In this document: positions 2,073 through 17,262 of the stretch, one piece after another
Position numbering within the stretch: the stretch's first letter is position 1
Layout of the letters: each line of letters begins with the position of its first letter
Assembly (NCBI GenBank): GCA_017468395.1
Contig: JAFUIR010000019.1
Coordinates: 1-64,000, forward strand
Reading direction: 5' to 3'
Origin: Lachnospiraceae bacterium
GTDB taxonomy: Bacteria; Bacillota; Clostridia; Lachnospirales; Lachnospiraceae
Length of the DNA stretch: 64,000 bases
Notes under the pieces: generated by a model
Database searches by the model: none
Seen by the model: the letters and a program-made list of their open reading frames with translations, nothing else
What the model was told of the DNA's origin: nothing
Made by a program: the position numbers and the translations under genes

Positions 2073-4367
2073 CTATAAGCCTGAATCATAATAAAAGAGT
2101 GGATTGTAATACTCACCGCCATACATAAGCTCTATGTGCAGATGACTTCCGGTACTGTTTCCCGTGTTTCCGGACTGTCCTATCAAGTCCCCGTGCGTTA
2201 CACTCTGTCCGGCACTGACACTGACACTGTCAAGGTGGGCATATTTGGTAACATATCCCCTGCTGTCCTCAATCACGATATAATTGCCATATTCACTGTC
2301 ATAGGCTGCCGTTGTCACGGTTCCGTCACAGGCAGAATACACATTTGTTCCTGTCGGTACTGCAATGTCAAGTCCACGGTGGAGCTGTGCTTCCCCGGTT
2401 GTGGGACTCTTGCGGTATCCGTAGTAACTGCTGATGTTGCCATGCCAGTATGAGCCAAGCGGTGAATAAAAATCCTGTAACACACCCATGGTTTCTGCAT
2501 ATACTGCATAGGTTTCCATCTGTTCTGCATTCATTTTAGGTACAGCCACGCTCTCCAAAGCTGTGGTATCTAAAGTAACCTCTAAAATGCTGACTTCATA
2601 TTCCACTTCGACCTCATACTCGACTTCCACCTCGTACTCAACTTCAACCTCGTATTCCACCTCGACCTCATACTCATATTCCTCCGTTCCGGTAGAACCG
2701 TCCGGATTGATTACCGTCCTTGTCCCGGTGCGGGTTTCCGTCCTCGTTCTGGTCTCCATTCTCGTCCTTGTTTCCGTTCTTGTACGGGTTTCTATCCTTG
2801 TCCTAGTCTCCGTAGTCGGTGTAAGTGTAAGTGAATACATCTCGTCAAACAAATCACTGATGACATCTGCCACTTCGCTGTATGTAAATTCCGGATACAC
2901 CGCCGAAAGGTAACTGATAAGCGTAAACGGGTTATGACCTATTCCGTCCAAATCATATTTGTACTCGTCATAATCCGGATTGTTGGTTTCTATGGCATCA
3001 ATCTCGAATTGAAGCTCCATTTCATACTCGGTAAGTGCAAGCTCCGCAGCATCAATATCCTTTGGTTCGCTCAAATAACTTGCTTCCATGGTAGTTGATA
3101 CAGAACCGCCAAGCATTGCCCCACAGGACGATAACGCTGTCATAAGAAATACAATAAGCAGTCCAATCACTCCTATACCGATAATCGTTGGCATATTCTT
3201 GGCTGCAAACTCCTGTAACTTCTTTGCAACTGCCGTTGCGGTATTGGTTGCCTTGCTTGCAAAGTTTTTGGCACTCTTGGCAGCTTCGCTCTTTCGTAAA
3301 GCCTTGGCATACTCCCGCTTAATACGCTGTTTCTGTAACCGCTTCTGAATGGCTTTTTTCTGCATTTCCGGGTTTTCCTCAAGGAATTTCTGGTACTGAA
3401 AATTTACTTCTGCCTTAAACTGCTTATTCTCCAGCTTGGCAACCTTTTTTCTCTGCTTTAATTCCTTGTTTTTACGGTGGTCAATGACATAATCCATGCC
3501 ACGCTCAACCGTCTGCTCCGTCTTATGAGCGCCCTCCACCGCCGAATTTTCCTTTTCATGCTCGGTAATCTTGCCATGCACAAAATTACGCTCCTCCGTT
3601 TCCACCCTCCGGAAAGCGGATACTGCAAGATTTTCCTTTTTGAAAGGCTTATCCACCTTATCTGCCACAAGCACATATTTGGCTTTTCCGGTGGCATCAT
3701 CAAACTGTCGCTCCAGACGATACTCCTTTTTCTTCGGGAGCTTGTCCTTCGCCCTCTGTGTTCTGCCCCCTGCCCGGTCAGCCTTTTTCTCCAGACGGTC
3801 TAATTTCTTGCTGCCCTTAAAAGTTCCCTCCATTGACTCCGTACCTTGTGTAAAGGTGGCTTCCTTCGTCTTGAACTCATTAAATCTGCCGTCATTTTTA
3901 GCATCCTTATCCGTTTTCCCCGCAGTACCATCCTCATAGCGTGAGCGTTCTCTGCTCTGATGTTCCCGGTGGACTCTGCTTTTCTGGTAACTCTTCTTTT
4001 TATGGGACTGGTGGTAGGTATCACGCTTTCGGTATTCTCCGTCCTGCGTTGTACCACCTTCCCTGTCGGACTCAAAAAAGTCATTCTCCGCAGTATTCTC
4101 CTGTGCTGTCTGCTTCCCTGAATCAGAAAATGCTTCGCCATTTTCCTTTTCTTTTGCTTCCGGCCCACTCGGTTCTGCTGATGTCTGCCTTTTCTTTTTT
4201 CCCGGCTCTTTCAATGCTCCCGGCTCTTTTGCTGTTTTCGGGTCAATAAAATCTTTTTTATCTTCCCCTTTTTTCTGAAAGCCTGTCCTGTCCTTTTCAA
4301 AACCGCTTTTCTCCTTACGATACTTGGACGCTTGTTTCTGGTTCTGCTTCTGTTTCTTCGCTGCCAT
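2073..4367 (-). CDS. Membrane-anchored M23 peptidase of conjugation system (CD1108-like)
   Basis: 764 aa from the ATG at 4367, which has GAGGAG ten bases upstream; an ATG at 4391 is in frame but has a poor site. The N-terminal 370 residues are Lys/Glu/Arg-rich and probably cytosolic. One membrane segment follows (about residues 385-410, IIGIGVIGLLIVFLMTALSS). Outside comes a short helical region, then two blocks of six-residue repeats of opposite charge around an NPDGSTG turn, then a C-terminal M23 domain with HRGLDIAVPTGT and GSHLHIELMYGG zinc-ligand motifs. M23 enzymes cleave peptidoglycan cross-bridges; here it would open the wall for the mating channel. The 5' end overlaps virB4 by 53 bp. 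Confidence 0.85.
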   Translation of the reverse strand: MAAKKQKQNQKQASKYRKEKSGFEKDRTGFQKKGEDKKDFIDPKTAKEPGALKEPGKKKRQTSAEPSGPEAKEKENGEAFSDSGKQTAQENTAENDFFESDREGGTTQDGEYRKRDTYHQSHKKKSYQKSRVHREHQSRERSRYEDGTAGKTDKDAKNDGRFNEFKTKEATFTQGTESMEGTFKGSKKLDRLEKKADRAGGRTQRAKDKLPKKKEYRLERQFDDATGKAKYVLVADKVDKPFKKENLAVSAFRRVETEERNFVHGKITEHEKENSAVEGAHKTEQTVERGMDYVIDHRKNKELKQRKKVAKLENKQFKAEVNFQYQKFLEENPEMQKKAIQKRLQKQRIKREYAKALRKSEAAKSAKNFASKATNTATAVAKKLQEFAAKNMPTIIGIGVIGLLIVFLMTALSSCGAMLGGSVSTTMEASYLSEPKDIDAAELALTEYEMELQFEIDAIETNNPDYDEYKYDLDGIGHNPFTLISYLSAVYPEFTYSEVADVISDLFDEMYSLTLTPTTETRTRIETRTRTETRTRMETRTRTETRTGTRTVINPDGSTGTEEYEYEVEVEYEVEVEYEVEVEYEVEVEYEVSILEVTLDTTALESVAVPKMNAEQMETYAVYAETMGVLQDFYSPLGSYWHGNISSYYGYRKSPTTGEAQLHRGLDIAVPTGTNVYSACDGTVTTAAYDSEYGNYIVIEDSRGYVTKYAHLDSVSVSAGQSVTHGDLIGQSGNTGNSTGSHLHIELMYGGEYYNPLFYYDSGL
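2592..2815 (-). repeat. 18-bp tandem repeats coding for two oppositely charged beta-type blocks
   Basis: Two adjacent arrays of 18-bp units lie inside the M23 gene. Bases about 2713-2815 code for repeats of the type RTRTET (also RTRIET, RTRMET); bases about 2592-2682 code for YEVEVE repeats. Between them is a short non-repetitive stretch coding for INPDGSTGT. The units differ mainly at third positions, so the repeats are not a very recent expansion. The complementary strand is also open across the array, which explains spurious plus-strand reading frames here. Confidence 0.9.
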
Positions 4368-6816
4368 CCACATCACTCTCCTCGTCCTCATGTACCGCTT
4401 CTTCCGGCTTGGTATTCATAATCGCATAAGTCTTGGTGTCTTTCGGGTATCTGTCAACAAACGGGATAACCACATTGTCAAACAGGATAAGTCCACAACC
4501 CTGCTCGGAATTGCTCACATGCTTAAGCTGCTTTTCAGATAGCCCCAGCTTATCCGCAAGTATCGTCTGATCCTTCGCATTCTGGTTTAAGAGGTACACA
4601 AAATCGCTGTTGCCCAAAATACCCTCAATCTCCTCCGACTTAAGGAAATCGCCTACATTCTGTGTCAGTCCTGTTGGTATTCCGCCCCACTTTCTGAAAC
4701 GCTTCCAGATTTCCACGGAATACTGTGCTGTCTGCTTTTCTTTCAGAAGCAAGTGGAACTCGTCACAGTAATATCTTGTGGCAATTCTGCGTTCACGGTT
4801 CATTGACACTCTGTTCCATACTGCATCCTGTACGATTAACATACCAAGCTCTTTTAACTGCTTGCCCAAGTCCCTGATGTCAAAACAGATAATACGGTTT
4901 TTGGAGTCCACATTGGTACGGTGGTTAAAATAATTCTGCGAACCATGCACATACAGCACAAGGCTGTTTGCAATACGCTCTGCCTTCGGGTTCTTATGCT
5001 TGAGTAAAGCATTATACAAGTCCTCTAAAATAGGCATATTCTCCGGTATGGGATTGACAAAGTAGGCATCATAAATCTGACGGATACATTCGTCAATAAT
5101 ACCTTTTTCATCATTCGCAAGACCGTCTTTCCCTCCGGCAATGGCATCGCACAGGGTAATGAGGAAGTCACTCTTTAACTTCAAGGCTTCCTTGTCGTTC
5201 TGGTGGCTTAACTGAATGTCCATAGGGTTAAGGAAATCCGTGGAGTCTGTTGCCAGCCTTACCACCTGTCCGTTTAATGCCTGCACCAAAGGAAAATACT
5301 CTCCCTCCGGGTCACAGATGATAATGTCATCCCTCGTTACAAGGAAGCACCCCAAAATCTCACGCTTCGCACTAAAGCTCTTACCACTTCCCGGTGTTCC
5401 AAGTATCACACCGTTTGGAGTACGCAGCCTTTTACGGTCTGCCATAATCATGTTGTTACTGAGGGCATTCAAGCCATAGTAAAGTGCCGGGGCAGACATA
5501 AATAATTCCTGTGTATTGAAAGGCACTAAGATTGCAGTAGTCTTTGTGGTCAGCGTTCGCTCCATGCCCGTTTCGTTAATGCCAATAGGTGCAACTGCCA
5601 TAAGTCCCTGCTCCTGTAAATACTGCAAGTTACGCAGACTGCAATTCGCCTGTTGGATAATGCCGGACACTCTCTGCACAAGGCTGTCCAACTTCCGCTT
5701 GCTTCTTGCAAAGCAGCCGATAAGGAAAGTCATGTTGATAACCTTCTGATTGCTTGTATTAAGGTCATTCAAAAGCTCCAGCGTGTCCTTCTCGTATGCC
5801 AGAATGTCCGGTGGCATGATGTCCATATCGTAACCGCTTCGTACTGCCTTTTTCTGCTCCTCAATCTTCATTTTCTGGATATTGGAAAGCGTTTCTTTAT
5901 ACCGCTTGATTGCCTTTACCGGGTCCATTGTCTGCATGTGCATGGACACGGTAACATTGTCATCAATATCCATGAGCTTCTTTAACAGCTCGTCCGTACA
6001 CTTCGGGGCAATAATATCAAGATAGAACACCCTACCGAACATTTCCCCGGTCTTAAAGCGTGTGGGATAACGGAAATCAAAGCCGGACGGGGCAATGTAA
6101 TCCTTGACCGAATTTCCGGAAAGAGCTGCCTGTTTATATGAAAAACGGAAAGGCTCCATTGTATCCTGATTGAAATACTCATGCAGAATACGCAGTCTTT
6201 CCTTTCCGTTTAGCGGTGTGGCATCTGTGCCGACATTTCTGAAATTTTTAATCACATCAAACTCGATGTTGTTAAGCTTTGCCCTTGCTTCCTTCACATT
6301 GGCACACTCCGTACCAAATATCAGATACTTGGACTTCTGTATGCCGTTGTTTCCCTTTGCAGACTGCTTCTTTAACATCTCCGAAAACTCCAGACGGATT
6401 TCGTCAAAGTCATCATTCTGCATAGGAATGTCAAACTGCTCAACCAATGTCTGCTCATTGACCTGTCGGTTAAACAGCACAATCTGAAACTTCACGGACG
6501 GGTCAAAATAATTGATAAGCTGGCTGTAAAGCTCCAAAATCTCAACCTGTTCCTCCTCATCAAGCAAACCATAGTTAAGGTCATAGAACTCAACCATTTT
6601 TGTGTAGTAATTCTTTGTGACCTGACAGACACCGTCCTGATACATTCGCTCAAAAGTAATGGTTTTCTGTGCCGTGGTAGGCTTTGCCTGCTGTTTTTCA
6701 TTTCCGGCAAGGGTACGCTTTAATTCCACAAGTCTTTTTTTCTCGCCTGTGGTAAGTCCGGCTGGCTTATTTTTTGCCACGGACTTTCGTTGCCCTGCCT
6801 GTTGCTTTTTGCTCAA
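4315..6816 (-). CDS. VirB4-like conjugation ATPase (TraE type)
   Basis: 833 aa, the normal size for VirB4-type ATPases of Gram-positive elements. The N-terminal half carries the CagE/VirB4 N-domain pattern. A Walker A motif, GTPGSGKS, lies near residue 474 and a Walker B region, YYCDEFHLLL, near residue 682; the arginine-finger region TGLTQNVGDFL follows. The protein energises assembly of the type IV channel at the inner face of the membrane. The gene starts inside the 3' end of prgI (50-bp overlap) and its own end overlaps the M23 gene, a compact translationally coupled unit. The tail is rich in Glu/Asp. Confidence 0.93.
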   Translation of the reverse strand: MSKKQQAGQRKSVAKNKPAGLTTGEKKRLVELKRTLAGNEKQQAKPTTAQKTITFERMYQDGVCQVTKNYYTKMVEFYDLNYGLLDEEEQVEILELYSQLINYFDPSVKFQIVLFNRQVNEQTLVEQFDIPMQNDDFDEIRLEFSEMLKKQSAKGNNGIQKSKYLIFGTECANVKEARAKLNNIEFDVIKNFRNVGTDATPLNGKERLRILHEYFNQDTMEPFRFSYKQAALSGNSVKDYIAPSGFDFRYPTRFKTGEMFGRVFYLDIIAPKCTDELLKKLMDIDDNVTVSMHMQTMDPVKAIKRYKETLSNIQKMKIEEQKKAVRSGYDMDIMPPDILAYEKDTLELLNDLNTSNQKVINMTFLIGCFARSKRKLDSLVQRVSGIIQQANCSLRNLQYLQEQGLMAVAPIGINETGMERTLTTKTTAILVPFNTQELFMSAPALYYGLNALSNNMIMADRKRLRTPNGVILGTPGSGKSFSAKREILGCFLVTRDDIIICDPEGEYFPLVQALNGQVVRLATDSTDFLNPMDIQLSHQNDKEALKLKSDFLITLCDAIAGGKDGLANDEKGIIDECIRQIYDAYFVNPIPENMPILEDLYNALLKHKNPKAERIANSLVLYVHGSQNYFNHRTNVDSKNRIICFDIRDLGKQLKELGMLIVQDAVWNRVSMNRERRIATRYYCDEFHLLLKEKQTAQYSVEIWKRFRKWGGIPTGLTQNVGDFLKSEEIEGILGNSDFVYLLNQNAKDQTILADKLGLSEKQLKHVSNSEQGCGLILFDNVVIPFVDRYPKDTKTYAIMNTKPEEAVHEDEESDVDGSEETEAEPETSVQVS

Positions 6817-8438: not shown

Positions 8439-10280
8439 TCATGCTTCGATTACCCCGGCATCAAAAACCTCATCCACCTTCATTTCCGGCTTTACTGCAA
8501 GCCTTGAAAGGTTCTTCACATACTTTTCAATGTCAAAGGCATTCTTCGCATCAAAATCGGACAGTAAATGATACTGCTTGTGCTTTGTAATGTCGAACTT
8601 ATTGGAGAAGAATGGTCTTACACCTCTAAGCTGCATAATACACTTGCCACCGTCCATAACTGCAATCTCGTCCTGACTCATAAGCTCTTTTCCGGTCTTT
8701 TGATAATTAAGACCATAAGACTGCGATGTACCTCTTGTATCAGAGGTATTATAAAGGTCAATGGTTTCTTTACCCAAAACTTCTGCCAGCTCTTTCAGCG
8801 TGGTCTTTTCCTTTCCACCAAGGAATAGTGTGGTATCACAGTTGCCCTCTATGGTATCTGCATTATCCTTATAAATCGCTTTAAGCTGCGACTTCGACTG
8901 CAAAATAATAGAAGCCGATATTTCCCTACTACGGATAGTGGCAATCAGCTTCTCAAACTTTGGTATCTGCCCGATGTTCGCAAACTCATCCAAGAGACAG
9001 CGTACATGAACCGGCAGTCTGCCGTTATAAACATCATCTGCCCTGTCACAGAGCAGATTAAAGAGCTGCGTATACATGATTGATACGATGAAGTTGAAAG
9101 TATCGTCCGTATCGGAAATGATAACGAATAACGCTGTCTTTTCATCCCCAAGCATATCTAACTCAAGCTCATCATAGCTTGTCAAATCACGAAGCTCCTT
9201 AATATCAAACGGTGCTAATCTTGCACCACAGCTAATTAGAATACTCTTAGCTGTCTTACCCGCAGCCAGCTTGTACTTTTTGTACTGCTTTACTGCAAAG
9301 TGTTCCGGGTCACGCTCCTCCAGCTCATCAAACATTAAATCGACAGGATTCTTAAACTCCTCATCGTCCTCCCTTGCTTCACTTGCATTTATCATGTCAA
9401 GCAGGGTGGTAAAATTCTGTTCTTCCTCCACACACTCATACCAGATGTACCCAATAAGAGCAGTATAATAGAGCTTTTCGGCTTTTACCCAGAAGTCCTC
9501 ACCGGATTGCTGTCCCTCTCCTTTGGTGTTGACTATAATCGTATTTACGAGTTTCAAAATATCCTTTTCGCTCCGGATATAAGCGAAAGGATTGTAGTGC
9601 ATGGACTTTTTGAAGTTAATGGTATTGAGTACCTTAACCTTATAACCGTTCTTTAAGAGCATCTTGCCACACTCCACAAGCACGGTACCCTTCGGGTCCG
9701 TTACCACATAGGAGCAGTGCATCTGCATGAGGTTCGGCTTTACAAAAAATCTGGTCTTACCGGAGCCGGAACCACCGATAACAAGAATGTTCTTGTTTCT
9801 CGCATACTTCGGCTCTTTTGGTCTGCCGGACATCATAAGCCTTTCCGTTTCCGTCAGAATAACATTGTTTTCAAATACCGGGTCAACATAAGGCTCAATG
9901 TCCTTTTCATTTCCCCACCTTGCAGAACCATACTCCATGCCATGACGGAATTTCTTTGCATTTTTCGCCTTGTAATACACAGCGAGCTTGATAGCAATTC
10001 CCCCGGCAACTCCAATAAGTACATCCTGTAAATGAAAACTTGGCAACGGATTTGCAAATGCCCTGTCAATACGGTTTATCATATCAAGCACCTTATCGAG
10101 TGCTGCTTCCTTCGTGCTGATACGGTAAAGCCATGCCATTTTGTTAAAGACATAAGCAAACAGTAAGTAGGGAAAATTCAGCAAAAGGAGCTTCTTTAGG
10201 TTGCCACCTTTGAATTTCGCTTTTGCTTTCTCAGGGACAGATTTAATATCTTTTACAATGCCATCCACGATTTTACTCAT
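8439..10280 (-). CDS. VirD4-like type IV coupling ATPase (CD1115 type)
   Basis: 613 aa. Two N-terminal membrane segments (about residues 28-45 and 85-105) are followed by the P-loop ATPase: Walker A GGSGSGKTRF near residue 172 and Walker B CLLDEFANIG near 432, with the QSKSQL motif after it. This is the coupling protein that brings the relaxosome to the channel. Its start overlaps the PcfB stop by 4 bp (ATGA type), as expected for the PcfB/PcfC pair. The length is normal and no truncation is seen. Confidence 0.93.
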   Translation of the reverse strand: MSKIVDGIVKDIKSVPEKAKAKFKGGNLKKLLLLNFPYLLFAYVFNKMAWLYRISTKEAALDKVLDMINRIDRAFANPLPSFHLQDVLIGVAGGIAIKLAVYYKAKNAKKFRHGMEYGSARWGNEKDIEPYVDPVFENNVILTETERLMMSGRPKEPKYARNKNILVIGGSGSGKTRFFVKPNLMQMHCSYVVTDPKGTVLVECGKMLLKNGYKVKVLNTINFKKSMHYNPFAYIRSEKDILKLVNTIIVNTKGEGQQSGEDFWVKAEKLYYTALIGYIWYECVEEEQNFTTLLDMINASEAREDDEEFKNPVDLMFDELEERDPEHFAVKQYKKYKLAAGKTAKSILISCGARLAPFDIKELRDLTSYDELELDMLGDEKTALFVIISDTDDTFNFIVSIMYTQLFNLLCDRADDVYNGRLPVHVRCLLDEFANIGQIPKFEKLIATIRSREISASIILQSKSQLKAIYKDNADTIEGNCDTTLFLGGKEKTTLKELAEVLGKETIDLYNTSDTRGTSQSYGLNYQKTGKELMSQDEIAVMDGGKCIMQLRGVRPFFSNKFDITKHKQYHLLSDFDAKNAFDIEKYVKNLSRLAVKPEMKVDEVFDAGVIEA

Positions 10281-11666: not shown

Positions 11667-11680
11667 TATTCATAAGTTCC

Positions 11681-12010
11681 CTAAACTTCTGGACACTGTG
11701 TCCAGAAGTGTCCGGCAATTATCTTCACAAGCTCAACTGCCATACCTAAAACCTTTATAATAAGCACCACACCGCCTATCAGACCACCTACCACAGCATT
11801 AAGAGCCAACACTCCCATGCTCCCGGCAATGCCAAAATTCTTCGGTATCAGTATCATGCACATCTTCCGAATACCAAACGGAAATCCCGCCAATATCCAG
11901 AACAGAAAGAAATCAAACCCTTCTGCTTTATTGCATACCGGATAACAGGTCAGTACCCATATCCCGATTGCTAACGCTGGCAGTATCACTTTATACAATG
12001 CCCTTTTCAT
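11681..12010 (-). CDS. Small membrane protein of ICE (possibly DUF6050)
   Basis: 109 aa from the ATG at 12010, which has GGAGG eight bases upstream inside the 3' end of the rep gene. Three hydrophobic segments are visible (about residues 8-25, 33-50 and 68-100). The last residues (FWTQCPEV) are coded by palindrome copy 4, so the palindrome has either invaded or been co-opted as the 3' end of the gene. The similarity to DUF6050 is from memory and not certain. Function unknown; coupling to rep translation is likely from the 20-bp overlap. Confidence 0.65.
   Translation of the reverse strand: MKRALYKVILPALAIGIWVLTCYPVCNKAEGFDFFLFWILAGFPFGIRKMCMILIPKNFGIAGSMGVLALNAVVGGLIGGVVLIIKVLGMAVELVKIIAGHFWTQCPEV
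11685..11709. repeat. Palindrome copy 4 (perfect 12-bp arms)
   Basis: ACTTCTGGACAC (11685-11696) and GTGTCCAGAAGT (11698-11709) around a single T. This is the longest and most symmetric copy. It overlaps the last codons of the small membrane protein and lies just upstream of the 239-aa gene. Confidence 0.93.
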
Positions 12011-13076
12011 GCCATCCACCTCCGTACATATCGTGCTGAACTTCCTGCTGATAGTAATGGTTTATGGTGTTCGGTGCATTGTACAGCGAGGTAATCATAT
12101 ATGCCTTGATGTTTGCAATCTTGGTTGTGGTATTCTGCATACAGCCAATGACATATTGCAGATGCGTACTGTCAAGCTTGAGGAACTTGGACTTCACAAG
12201 CTCATACGGATAGTCCTCTCCCCCGACTCTTACAGTTTTACGCTTCACGCATACCACTTCGCAAATAACCTCAAACAGCTCCTCATACAATGCTTTGTCC
12301 TGCCATTCGCCATGAGCCATAAGTTGTTCATACTCGATATTCTGTTTAATCAACTCTATGTAAGCAGATACTTCATCCATCCCATCCATCGTATCACCTG
12401 CCTGTGCAGCTTGCATATTCTGTCCCTGTACAGATAGATTGATTGGATTAGTATAGCTCAACTCAGTATAGTTATTATTGTTATAATTTCCGTTCGGTTC
12501 TCGAACTTCTGCAAGTTCGGTTTCCGAACCTCTTGAAGTTTGATTATCGAATTTCTTGAAGTTCGATTTCCGAATTTCTTGAAGTTCGATTTCCGAATTT
12601 CTTGAAGTTTGATTGTCGAACTCCTTGAAGTTCGGTTTCCGAACTTCTGTGGAAACATCAGTATTAGCAGGACTTTCCGGGTGTTTTTCTTCCTCGGTTC
12701 TTGCTTCCAGAGTAGCAAAATTCTTCACATAAATTATATCCGGTTTGCCAAGTCCCTGCCTTTTTTTCTCAATCAGACCAATGCCCTTCTTACTGTCAAG
12801 CTCTGCTATGACCTTGGAGCATTTCTCTCTGGCACACCCTAAGTCCTCCATAATATTATCTAAGGTGTAATGAATGTATGCTCTGTTTTCTTCATCAATC
12901 CACCCGTTTTTCATTGATAACGCCATTCTGTCAAGCATAAGACCATAAAGGAGTTTTGCATCACTGGATAACTCTTTGAAACGCTCATCTTTTATCAAAA
13001 GTCTTGGAACTCTGTAAAAAGAAAACTGCTCCGCTTCAATTCCGTAATAATAGTCAAATCTCAAACCGTCACCCAT
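11991..13076 (-). CDS. Replication initiator, RepA_N type with DUF6017 tail
   Basis: 361 aa. The N-terminal 120 residues (FSFYRVPRLLIKDERFK, LSSDAKLLYGLMLDRM, DNIMEDLGCAREKCSKVIAEL) match the RepA_N winged-helix initiator domain. Residues about 145-197 are a repetitive linker coded by seven 23-bp DNA repeats. The C-terminal part (VSAYIELIKQNIEYEQLM to the end) resembles DUF6017 found in ICE initiators. It should support autonomous replication or maintenance of the excised element together with ParA/ParB immediately upstream. In RepA_N plasmids such as pAD1 and pSK41 the origin lies inside rep; the repeat here fits that arrangement. Confidence 0.85.
   Translation of the reverse strand: MGDGLRFDYYYGIEAEQFSFYRVPRLLIKDERFKELSSDAKLLYGLMLDRMALSMKNGWIDEENRAYIHYTLDNIMEDLGCAREKCSKVIAELDSKKGIGLIEKKRQGLGKPDIIYVKNFATLEARTEEEKHPESPANTDVSTEVRKPNFKEFDNQTSRNSEIELQEIRKSNFKKFDNQTSRGSETELAEVREPNGNYNNNNYTELSYTNPINLSVQGQNMQAAQAGDTMDGMDEVSAYIELIKQNIEYEQLMAHGEWQDKALYEELFEVICEVVCVKRKTVRVGGEDYPYELVKSKFLKLDSTHLQYVIGCMQNTTTKIANIKAYMITSLYNAPNTINHYYQQEVQHDMYGGGWHEKGIV
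12492..12652. repeat. Seven tandem 23-bp iteron-like repeats inside rep
   Basis: Seven contiguous units start at 12492, 12515, 12538, 12561, 12584, 12607 and 12630. Each begins with a dyad of the type GTTCGGTTTCCGAAC and, except the divergent ends, finishes with TTCTTGAA or close to it. Because 23 is not a multiple of three, successive units are read in different frames, giving a 23-residue protein period for every three units. Strong candidate for the binding site of the initiator and for the replication origin. Confidence 0.92.
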
Positions 13077-13093: not shown

Positions 13094-13984
13094 CTATGCT
13101 CTGTTCTTCCATTCTTCCAACAACTGATATATCACACTTTCTATATCCTCACTGTCATAATCAGCCGGAAAATACTGACTGATTTTTTCAGCTTTTATTA
13201 CCACTTTTCGCTCTTTCGGCTTCTGCTCCGTAAGTATCAGTCTGACCATCGGCAGTGTAAGTTCTCCCTTTTTGCCATGCTCTTTCAGCTTTCCGGATTG
13301 TGTGGTAGATATAGTGAACATTTTCTCCTGTAGAATTACAAGTACCCATTGCTGCTGTTCTTCTGTAAGAAATGATATATCTACCCCCTGCATGAACCCA
13401 ATTTTTTTATTATCAACCAGCTCTAAAAGCTCGTCAGACAACCTCGACAACCAGATATACCTCTGCACCGTCTTTCCGCTTTCTCCGGCTTTTTCGCCTA
13501 TCTCGTCAAGGGTAAGTCCGCCGGACTTACTCCCCTGATGTTTCATGGCTTCATACTTCATAAAATAAGCTTTTGCCTTTTCACTCGGTAATATGTCCTC
13601 ACGCTGAATATTGGAGTCCACCATGATAATAGTTGCTTCATCATCGGTATAATTGCGGACAATAACAGGCATTTCCGACTTCCCGGCTCTTTCAGAACCT
13701 CTCTTTCTACGGTGTCCGGCGATAATCTCATATCCACCTTCGGCTCTTGGTCTTGCAATACCCGGAACAAGCACACCATACTTCTTAATACTCTCCGTTG
13801 TTTCTTCCATCTTTTCATCATCGACCACTCTGAACGGGTGGTCTTTGAATGTGTGTAAATCAGCAAGCGGAACGCTGATAATCTGCTCTAACGAACTATT
13901 CTCGGCTGTGTCATTTCCAAATAAATCATCGTATGTGTCCAATTTAATCTTGGAAGCACTACTTTTTCTTGCATTACTGCTCAT
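13094..13984 (-). CDS. ParB/Spo0J-family partition protein
   Basis: 296 aa. The N-terminal ParB CTPase/nuclease-like domain is clear: ISVPLADLHTFKDHPF, GVLVPGIARPRAEGGYEIIAGHRR with the GHRR box near residue 92, and DSNIQREDILPSEKA. A helix-turn-helix follows (LTLDEIGEKAGESGKTVQRYIWLSRL). It should bind parS-like sites and work with the upstream ParA to segregate the circular form of the element. Its start overlaps parA by 11 bp. No parS site was recognised by eye nearby. Confidence 0.9.
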   Translation of the reverse strand: MSSNARKSSASKIKLDTYDDLFGNDTAENSSLEQIISVPLADLHTFKDHPFRVVDDEKMEETTESIKKYGVLVPGIARPRAEGGYEIIAGHRRKRGSERAGKSEMPVIVRNYTDDEATIIMVDSNIQREDILPSEKAKAYFMKYEAMKHQGSKSGGLTLDEIGEKAGESGKTVQRYIWLSRLSDELLELVDNKKIGFMQGVDISFLTEEQQQWVLVILQEKMFTISTTQSGKLKEHGKKGELTLPMVRLILTEQKPKERKVVIKAEKISQYFPADYDSEDIESVIYQLLEEWKNRA

Positions 13985-14759
13985 TTGCCAACACCTCCTC
14001 TGTCAAGGAAAGATATGCAGAAGCTACCTTGCCCTTCGGGTCATGTGCATAAATACTAATACCCTCTGCTGATATTTCCGCAGCTCTTACCGAAACAGGA
14101 ATGTTATTGGCAAATATCCTTATCTTACTTCCATACGCTTCCTGAAGCATTGCACTAATATCCTTCGCATAGTTGGTTCTGCTGTCCACCATCGTCAGCA
14201 ATATGCCCTCTATCTCCAGTTTTGGATTGATTTGCCGCTTAACCTTTCCAATGGTCTTAATAAGCTGTTGCAAACCTTTGACGGGCAGATATGCAGCCTG
14301 TACAGGTATTAAAATACTGTTAGCACAAGAAAACGCATTTATCGTAATCATGCCAAGCGAGGGCATACAGTCAATGAGGATATAATCGTAGTAATCTGCA
14401 ACAATTCCTATGTATTCCCTCATTATTCGCTCTCTGCTCATTACATTCACAAGGGAAACTTCCAAGCCGGAAAGCTCAATATTTCCCGGCATAAGGTCTA
14501 TTCCCTCCTCATGGTGTAAAATACCCTCCATAGGTTCTACTGTTTCATCATTGATTAAATTACCCATTACAGTAGCCAGCGTAATCTCCAATCTGTCCGG
14601 CTCTGTATATCCTAAACTTGCTGTAAGGCTTCCCTGGGCATCTGCATCTATCAACAATACCCTTTTCCCCTGCTTTGCAAGTCCTATTCCTAAATTACTT
14701 GTTGTGGTGGTCTTGCCAACGCCACCCTTCTGATTTGCGATTGCTATTACTCTACACAT
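13974..14759 (-). CDS. ParA-family partition ATPase
   Basis: 261 aa, full length. The deviant Walker A motif KGGVGKTTTT (residues about 10-19) and the DADAQGSLT and LIDCMPSLG motifs are intact. It has no N-terminal HTH extension, so it resembles Soj-type ParA rather than a self-repressing SopA type. It acts on nucleoid DNA to position the ParB complex. It follows the DUF3970 gene by 18 bp with AAGGAG upstream of the ATG, and is coupled to parB downstream. Confidence 0.93.
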   Translation of the reverse strand: MCRVIAIANQKGGVGKTTTTSNLGIGLAKQGKRVLLIDADAQGSLTASLGYTEPDRLEITLATVMGNLINDETVEPMEGILHHEEGIDLMPGNIELSGLEVSLVNVMSRERIMREYIGIVADYYDYILIDCMPSLGMITINAFSCANSILIPVQAAYLPVKGLQQLIKTIGKVKRQINPKLEIEGILLTMVDSRTNYAKDISAMLQEAYGSKIRIFANNIPVSVRAAEISAEGISIYAHDPKGKVASAYLSLTEEVLANEQ

Positions 14760-15540: not shown

Positions 15541-15650
15541 CGATTTAATTTAAAATCGTTTATTTTAACCCTTTAAGAGTGGTTAATTTGTCGTACTCTT
15601 GTCGTACTGTACTTTCAAAAAGTCCGCAAACCCGCATAAATACTGGGTTT
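15541..15650. other. Putative ICE end with direct repeats, next to lysS stop
   Basis: Contains an inverted repeat CGATTT/AAATCG (15541-15558), two direct repeats TTGTCGTACT (15588-15597 and 15599-15608, 11-bp period) and AAACCC/GGGTTT arms (about 15,628-15,650) reaching the lysS stop codon. Such short direct repeats near the end of an element resemble recombinase arm-type sites. The exact crossover point cannot be defined without the other end. Confidence 0.4.
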
Positions 15651-17262
15651 ATTTATCAAGCGACTTCATCGTCGGGAACAACAACACATCCCTAATCGCA
15701 GGGGAATTTGTGAGCAACATCACAAGTCTGTCGATACCGTAACCGATACCGCCTGTAGGAGGCATACCGATTTCCAGTGCGTTCATGAAATCTTCGTCAG
15801 TTGTGTTTGCTTCTTCGTCACCTGCTGCCAGAGCCGCTTCCTGTGCTTTGAAACGTTCTCTCTGGTCAATGGGGTCGTTAAGTTCGGAGTAAGCGTTACA
15901 CATTTCACGTCCGTAAATGAACAATTCAAAACGCTCTACATAGTCCGGCTTGTCCGGTTTTCTCTTGGTCAAAGGAGAAATCTCAACGGGATGGTCCATT
16001 ACAAATGTAGGCTGAATCAAGTGCTCTTCTACAAATTCTTCAAAGAACAAATTCAGGATGTCGCCTTTTTCATGGCGTGCTTCATAATGAACACCCTTCT
16101 CGTCAGCAATCTTCTTCGCAGCTGCTGTGTCAGCGATTTCGTCGAAATCAACCCCTGCGTATTTCTTAACTGCTTCCACCATGGTCAGTCTCTCGAAAGG
16201 CTTGCCCAGGTCAATCATATGCTCTGCGTAAGGAATCAAAGTGGTTCCGCATACTTCCTGTGCCACATGACGGAACATATTCTCTGTCAAATCCATCATG
16301 CCGTAATAATCAGTATATGCCTGATAGAGCTCCATCAAAGTAAATTCAGGGTTGTGTCTTGTATCGAGACCTTCGTTTCTGAATACTCTACCGATTTCGT
16401 ATACTCTCTCAAGACCACCGACAATCAGTCTCTTGAGGTAAAGTTCTAAGGAAATACGAAGTTTTACGTCCTCATCCAAAGCATTGTAGTGTGTTTCAAA
16501 AGGTCTTGCTGCTGCACCGCCTGCATTGGATACCAGCATCGGGGTTTCCACTTCCATAAAGCCCTGTGCGTCCAGGAACTTACGGATTTCGCTGATAATC
16601 TTAGAACGCTTAATGAAAGTATCCTTTACTTCTTCATTCATAATCAGGTCAGTATATCTTTGACGATAACGGGTATCTGTATCTGTTAATCCATGGAATT
16701 TTTCAGGAAGAACCTGCAAATTCTTGGAAAGTAAAGTCATCTCAACAGCATGGATGGAAATTTCCCCTGTTTTTGTACGGAATACATATCCCTTAACACC
16801 ATAAATATCACCAATATCTGATTTCTTAAAATCAGCGTAGGATTCTTCTCCAATGGCATCCTTAGCCACATAGACCTGAATTCTACCTTTTAAATCCTGA
16901 ATATTGCAAAAAGATGCCTTACCCATAACGCGTTTGAACATCATACGGCCGGCAATGGAAACTTCAATCGGATTCGCATCCATAATTGCTCTTCTCTCGT
17001 TATAATCCGCATTCAGGACTTCTCTCGCCTGTGCTTCATCCAAACCTTCTACGTTCGGCTCCACTCTGCCCGCCAAAATTTTCTCTTCATGAGCAGTATA
17101 TTGTTCCTTCGCATCCAAGGTGTGGTGAGTCACATCATACTTGGTAATCTGGAAGGGGTCTTTTCCTGCTTCCTGAAGATTTGCTAATTTTTCACGGCGA
17201 ACCTTTAACAGTTGGTTAAGGTCCTGCTCCTGTACATTTTGTGTAGAATTCTGCTCTGCCAC
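15649..17262 (-). CDS. lysS: Lysyl-tRNA synthetase, class II
   Basis: 537 aa. An N-terminal OB-fold anticodon-binding domain ([25 protein letters not shown]) is followed by class II motif 2 ([19 protein letters not shown], near residue 287) and motif 3 ([13 protein letters not shown], near 505). It charges tRNA-Lys. The N-terminal extension before the OB fold explains most of the excess over the usual 490-500 residues. The gene is 13 bp downstream of greA, a common pairing. The mobile element adjoins its stop codon; the C terminus looks complete. Confidence 0.96.

Follow-up and report, generated by a model that had tools for sequence, protein, structure and literature searches.

The closest described system is that of the staphylococcal plasmid pSK41, in which, according to the accessible part of the report (PMC5703833), the origin of replication and four Rep boxes are located in the middle of rep, where they encode a dispensable linker of the protein and include an A+T-rich tract in the box. 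The iterons of RepA_N systems are described, in the available portion of another study (PMC7145576), as inverted repeats converging on a poly-A tract. The same portion presents RepA of the PLE satellites of Vibrio cholerae as a RepA_N initiator on an integrated element, with inverted-repeat iterons around poly-A that lie in the noncoding region NCR3 and not in a gene (PMC7145576). Moreover, TnGBS1, TnGBS2 and the Tn5252/Tn1549-family ICEs carry RepA_N and ParA, and episomal replication has been proposed for the Tn1549 family, with no origin inside rep being described in the accessible text of that work (PMC4701971).

The 64-kb stretch of DNA analysed here (the window) contains a rep gene that resembles that of pSK41 in having a RepA_N winged-helix N-terminal domain (NTD) and an array of repeated sites inside the gene that encodes the linker, but differs from it in the C-terminal domain (CTD), which is DUF6017, in the number of units, which is seven, and in its location on a putative chromosomal ICE with ParA/ParB. 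This likeness is drawn from the description of pSK41, the comparison of spacings having been made with the S. epidermidis rep genes L286 and L291. With PLE the locus shares the initiator type and the iterons around poly-A, although not their noncoding location, and with TnGBS1, TnGBS2 and the Tn5252/Tn1549 family it shares the combination of RepA_N and ParA on an ICE. The array is read as an intragenic replication origin of the RepA_N (pSK41) kind belonging to a Tn1549-type ICE, with a probability of roughly 0.87. Origins of this kind are already known, and the present array, so read, is one more case.

The array, its gene and the surrounding element

The features of the locus are collected in Table 1. 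Tandem Repeats Finder reports a repeat at 12502-12648 with a period of 23, 6.4 copies and an 82% match, in addition to a 69-bp reading, and a second repeat search found a repeat family with exact 23 spacing at the array. The lag-23 score of rep is 86, whereas the best of 20 codon shuffles reached 11 and 12 in two draws (lags 12-59). These three lines of evidence bear out the seven tandem units within rep claimed by the sequence-only reading, which was also right that the units are read in all three frames (2, 1, 0, 2, 1, 0, 2 of the rep ORF) and that they share a dyad, GTTCGG-TTT-CCGAAC on the plus strand. This core dyad occurs with 0-2 mismatches at all seven 23-bp steps, its centres being 12637, 12614, 12591, 12568, 12545, 12522 and 12499; beyond the array it has a single 2-mismatch match in the 64 kb, at 1698. 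Counted on both strands of the window, core-dyad matches amount to 11, compared with a mean of 4.06 and a largest value of 8 in shuffled sequences. The cluster-consensus unit, agaAGTTCGGAAATCGAACTtca, reads AGA-arm-AAA-arm-TCA on the coding (minus) strand, and each period holds two dyads set half a period apart, namely the core GTTCGG-AAA-CCGAAC and a junction dyad TTCnnGAA.

Table 1. Coordinates of the features of the locus (positions in the window).
Feature	Position	Strand	Basis or remark
VirB4-like ATPase, CD1110 family	4315..6816	-	NF045971 1.1e-292
VirD4-like coupling protein, CD1115 family	8439..10280	-	NF045973 9e-176
rep gene, 361 aa	11991..13076	-	ORF; Pfam RepA_N 2.5e-27 and DUF6017 1.7e-41; disordered linker between domains
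DUF6017 C-terminal domain, aa 226-352	12021..12401	-	Pfam; aa 234-316 and 320-333 with pLDDT >50 in model
AT-rich stretch past last iteron	12434..12487	-	Candidate site of unwinding; relatives have ACTGA-type repeats
Seven 23-bp iterons, core dyad GTTCGG-AAA-CCGAAC	12488..12648	-	Encode part of Rep linker
Predicted recognition helix, aa 83-93	12798..12830	-	AlphaFold2 secondary structure; residues 83-86 co-vary with iteron arms
RepA_N winged-helix DNA-binding domain, aa 18-92	12801..13025	-	Pfam; PDB 4pt7, 5kbj, 4pql, 4pta by sequence and by fold
ParB partition protein gene	13094..13984	-	PF02195 2.6e-18; TIGR00180
ParA partition ATPase gene	13974..14759	-	AAA_31 4.1e-55
lysS-proximal element end	15609..15665		DNA similarity to 6 of 7 genus relatives begins here; the seventh (L296) matches through

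The iterons sit between the RepA_N and DUF6017 domains and code for residues 142-195 of Rep, within a stretch (121-233) that has pLDDT <50 and is predicted to be disordered in the AlphaFold2 model. Since this model was built from 34 sequences and has a mean pLDDT of 53.5, only its two folded parts are read. The first is the NTD, whose match to RepA_N (PF06970) lies above the cut-off, for which 4pt7 and 5kbj were found both by sequence and by fold, and which is homologous to PDB 5kbj, an entry entitled "Structure of Rep-DNA complex". In the model, the helix at 83-93 follows a turn and is succeeded by strands at 102-105 and 114-117 behind it. As for DUF6017, neither its sequence nor its fold matched a solved structure at the thresholds applied; within the family, the domain is present in 104 of 299 genomes, an even draw from a larger group, and within the order a protein search with Rep had hits in 186 of 392 genomes.

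The array is followed by an AT-rich stretch which, across 40 cluster representatives, has 84% AT in its first 20 bp as against a gene mean of 58%. The motif A[CG]TGA occurs 1.93 times per 80 bp after the array and 0.15 times before it, being absent in 5 of the 40 representatives. A DnaA box at the array was unsupported, the nearest exact match being at 14044 and the window holding 6 matches where 3.1 are expected.

The genes for ParB and ParA are located directly upstream of rep on the same strand, and transfer genes of the CD1115, CD1110 and CD1108 types lie downstream. The CD1110-type VirB4, the CD1115-type VirD4 and the CD1108 protein are taken here to be families of Tn1549-type elements, and the element is therefore placed with the Tn1549-type ICEs. 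This assignment and the mobility of the element are putative, since the contig begins inside the element and no match to the relaxase family PF03432 was found in the assembly. One end of the element, near 15609-15665, adjoins the 3' end of lysS, the other being beyond the contig. An attachment-like imperfect palindrome, AAACCCGCATAAATACTGGGTTT, is found at 15628-15650 beside the 3' end of lysS, and a 29-mer containing AAACCCGCATAAATACTGGGTTT is single-copy in its own assembly when up to 3 mismatches are allowed. Downstream of rep, at the end of a DUF6050 ORF, there is an inverted repeat at 11672-11722 with 25-nt arms that are 80% complementary, possibly a terminator or operator. The same genome also has a second, shorter RepA_N ORF (a 184-residue open frame) on contig C10 of G000, at 165007-165183 (L002).

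Constraint on the array and covariation with the recognition helix

The comparison set of rep genes comprised 284 records (283 loci plus the window slice), which gave 270 full-length ORFs, 240 of them distinct and including that of the window, with 27 partial ORFs left out. As 80 of the loci were the best 80 of 144 close relatives of Rep and the other loci were drawn from among the matches listed, the sampling of loci is biased, and counts are therefore also given at the level of clusters. A period of 23 bp is dominant in 158 of the 240 distinct full-length genes. Another period dominates in 66 of them (15 or 30 bp in 54, 24 in 4, 17 or 34 in 5, other values in 3), and 16 have no period above the shuffle margin. 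The sequence-only reading had proposed a check of whether the period is kept while the peptide drifts; it held, with 23 bp dominant in those 158 genes and substitutions that ignore the codon frame, as detailed below. The contrary outcome named in advance, a peptide kept and a DNA period lost, is the opposite of what was found among the 240 genes.

Substitutions were compared in 48 independent pairs from the 125 genes with 4, 7 or 10 units, pairs with an array difference above 45% being left out. From this codon analysis, as from those of unit similarity, covariation, AT content and linker, 33 of the 158 genes were set aside, of which 29 are off-class in unit number and 4 have half-integer centres. 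Third codon positions received 34% of substitutions in the array (280/814), compared with 69% in the NTD (996/1436) and 65% in the CTD (1569/2403), and the share in the array differs from that in the NTD and CTD together at p = 3e-66. Both flanking parts of the linker, as well as the AT-rich stretch, have a third-position share of 40-42%, so most of the codon bias is missing there too. Thus, the absence of codon-position bias alone signifies a lack of peptide constraint and does not by itself set the array apart from the rest of the linker. Divergence, in turn, is 0.109 in the array versus 0.167 in the linker before it and 0.181 in the linker after it, with a range of 0.149-0.181 over the non-array stretches of the linker. 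Missing codon bias combined with lower divergence in the array indicates, therefore, that the linker peptide is largely free while the DNA is held. To judge from sequence comparison, the array is constrained as DNA, as evidenced by its period, its covariation and its lower divergence; the earlier claim that selection acts on the DNA and not on the peptide is upheld on these three grounds, codon bias alone being insufficient for it.

Within genes, the two arms of the core dyad have a complementarity of 0.693, as opposed to 0.421 (SD 0.026) when right arms are permuted, a value that none of 5000 permutations reached. The arms of the junction dyad behave likewise, with 0.697 versus 0.493 permuted and 0 of 5000, both results being obtained over 40 NTD clusters. 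In 35 of the 40 cluster consensuses, an A flanks the dyad centre on both sides. Together with the complementarity of the arms, this gives the array a feature of RepA_N systems, namely direct repeats that are semi-palindromic and run towards a poly-A tract. The arms change jointly, with forms such as GTTCG/CGAAC, GTCGG/CCGAC, GTAAA, GTTCA/TGAAC and NNRTG/CACAA.

These changes are accompanied by changes in Rep. The top three associations between NTD residues and base pairs involve residues 83, 84 and 85, as judged by z-scores whose shuffles did not control for relatedness. A scan with 3-residue windows in which the rest of the NTD was partialled out peaked at 84 (r 0.40), followed by 85, 83 and 86, with 101 as the next position (0.30); it used the 63 genes with aligned residues 83 and 86 and no permutation test. 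According to the model, residues 83-86 would form the start of the predicted recognition helix, and the signal from the wing is weaker. Among the patterns listed (at most six per helix), all 25 genes with AREKC have GTTCG, all 15 with SKEKA have GTCGG, all 14 with A[RK]ATC have GTTCA and, of the 12 with SKPTC, the 10 listed have GTAAA. This table for residues 82-86 was drawn up from the very genes that it describes, its outside check being six plasmid genes (see below). Between members of different NTD clusters, 74% of arm positions 3-5 are shared if residues 83-85 agree (86 pairs) and 32% if they do not (1793 pairs). Moreover, some pairs with 91-94% identical NTDs differ in their arms and, with them, in helix residues (L263/L242, L264/L279 and L243/L281). 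Taken together, the covariation between arms and that between helix and arms point to Rep itself as the probable binder.

Two explanations would dispense with sites on the DNA. One of them holds that what is kept is a repeated peptide of the Rep linker, 23 residues or 69 bp long, of which the DNA period would be a by-product, and Tandem Repeats Finder indeed also gives a 69-bp unit, at 84%. Mean unit identity is highest at a separation of 3 units (0.742, with 0.707 at 1 and 0.728 at 2). Nevertheless, units that share a frame (separations 3 and 6) are no more similar than those in other frames (0.697 versus 0.692, p 0.82, 17 arrays), only 34% of substitutions in the array fall at third positions and the linker is predicted to be disordered, so that a peptide repeat is very improbable. 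The other holds that the dyads form hairpins in the rep mRNA that control translation or RNA stability. Stems in RNA would likewise cause the arms to covary; however, mismatches of the G-U type are not enriched (8, versus 23 of the A-C type), and the sequence of the arms tracks a helix for DNA recognition, which leaves the hairpins scarcely any credence.

Arrays with other periods were observed in the same set. Those of 24 bp (L149, L150, L092 and L188) are in frame, their successive units encoding similar 8-residue peptides, and L149 and L150 combine GTCGG/CCGAC arms with a spacer of greater length. The 17/34-bp arrays of L127, L053, L070, L062 and L123 have half sites resembling ACCAGT/ACCGGT in the part of rep that encodes the linker. 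The 15-bp class, with 54 genes (most of L004 to L033 and others), is exemplified by CCAACRTTGGAWAAT, as judged by eye, and many of its Reps score strongly for DUF6017. In this class, 28 of 76 array substitutions in 9 pairs are at third positions, which amounts to little codon bias, and its arrays are probably DNA-driven too.

Unit number and reading frame

The number of units was finally counted on the core dyad with the A-tract, as counting by the best-scoring dyad mixed core and junction dyads and returned many values of 3, 6 and 9 (87 of 158 at 1 modulo 3). On the core dyad, 37 genes have 4 units, 81 have 7, 11 have 10 and 29 have another number, and hence 129 of 158 are 1 modulo 3, a count that varies from 110 to 129 across thresholds of 1.5 to 3.5 SD. 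The same class accounts for 43 of 62 clusters when NTDs are grouped at 85% identity, for 24 of 38 at 70% and for 93 of the 104 clear-edged arrays. As 23 leaves a remainder of 2 on division by three, an array can change without breaking rep only by threes, unless another indel compensates, and steps of three units lead mostly to 4, 7 or 10. When L204 (4 units) is aligned with the window and L205 (7 each) and with L236 (10), the steps appear as exact 69-bp gaps between shared flanks. To account for the numbers 4, 7 and 10, the NTD tree needs no fewer than 9 changes and the CTD tree no fewer than 8 (FastTree, no support test), and with off-class genes included as states the unit number modulo 3 changes at least 18-20 times.

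Since 11 of the 104 clear-edged arrays are off-class with an intact ORF, the three-unit rule is not absolute. Among the 29 off-class genes, many are borderline cases at the edge of an array, and in 11 of the 29 the last unit is in the usual frame and the array begins one unit later. In L125 (5 units) and L102 (11 units), the N- and C-terminal parts of rep are in different frames, which would agree with the rule; both come from draft assemblies, so an assembly error is possible. Three further interrupted rep genes have no bearing on the rule, as the parts are in the same frame with a stop between them in L156 and L187, and L017, whose parts differ in frame, belongs to the 15-bp class.

On balance, it is more likely than not that the reading frame quantises the number of iterons, in such a way that the dosage for copy control would change in discrete steps (4, 7, 10) and a slip of a single unit would turn the initiator off, and that, together with the code of residues 83-86, both specificity and unit number could be read from the sequence in ICEs and plasmids. 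The three-unit step is a clear instance of a single DNA stretch obeying two rules simultaneously. Predictions as to which elements should be compatible follow from the residue-to-site table. No account of the three-unit step or of a RepA_N residue code was encountered in the literature searched, in which subscription papers were mostly outside reach, so that this is weak evidence of absence.

The origin model and related plasmids

The sequence-only reading had proposed an intragenic origin of this ICE. The period, the covariation and an anatomy matching that of published RepA_N origins support it, and its premise that the origin lies within rep in RepA_N plasmids agrees with the accessible text of PMC5703833. 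In the proposed mechanism, the N-terminal winged helix of Rep, dimeric in solved relatives, would bind each 23-bp unit, its recognition helices reading the inverted arms and the A-tract centre bending. Seven bound units, of about two helical turns each, would assemble into a nucleoprotein complex and thereby open the AT-rich DNA next to them. DUF6017, anchored through the disordered linker for which the array codes, would bring in the host primosome. The excised circle would replicate in a plasmid-like manner and be segregated by ParA/ParB.

Binding of Rep to the units is also compatible with other roles. The units could be Rep sites for autoregulation, iteron-based copy control or handcuffing, the origin being elsewhere in the element. 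Iterons often serve control as well, and evidence for binding alone does not place the start of replication. A role confined to control is nonetheless quite improbable, given that the end of the array is immediately adjoined, both here and in several plasmids, by an AT-rich stretch carrying ACTGA-type repeats, and that the pSK41 origin has been shown to reside within rep, according to the available part of PMC5703833. It is unlikely, if rather less so, that the origin is vestigial, an idea that PMC7145576, in its accessible portion, attributes to earlier authors: the element would descend from a RepA_N plasmid, with Rep and its sites now employed in transfer or some other role and not in replication. 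The location of the element in a chromosome suits such a history, whereas the continued co-evolution of sites and recognition helix across 40 NTD clusters, and the switches of specificity between close relatives, speak against it, as does the involvement of replication in the maintenance of TnGBS1 and TnGBS2, both of which encode RepA_N proteins (PMC4701971, as far as its text is accessible). In the portions available, these papers differ on whether RepA_N proteins replicate chromosomal conjugative elements, as PMC4701971 proposes it and PMC7145576 cites the opposite speculation. A conserved origin that co-evolves with Rep in many elements argues that they still drive replication, and under the reading as an intragenic origin the array would be the exact site at which to test the replication of these elements.

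Plasmids were compared by means of 11 rep regions chosen by the authors from 40 listed of 2851 records, with gene ends guessed in three regions without an annotated rep. In the S. epidermidis plasmid genes L286 and L291, a 23-bp unit recurs 3.8 and 3.6 times (four when judged by eye) at the same place in rep; L284 (Monoglobus) has 5.3 and L285 (Planococcus) 2.9 copies, and weaker 23-bp signals, of 2.1 and 2.5, are present in L289 (L. sakei) and L293 (S. saprophyticus). No 23-bp array was found in the other 5 of the 11 regions, all from lactobacilli and including the three with guessed gene ends. In the plasmid units listed, an ACTGA-rich stretch similarly comes after the array. By eye, the helix residues match the arms expected from the ICE table in 4 of the 6 plasmid genes (L284, L285, L286 and L289), the match being ambiguous in L293 and L291 having no precedent in that table. 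L284 corresponds to NZ_OY725736.1 of Monoglobus pectinilyticus, a circular record of 517,814 bp labelled plasmid 12, in which the relative of Rep (query coverage 95%, identity 41%) adjoins a ParB gene.
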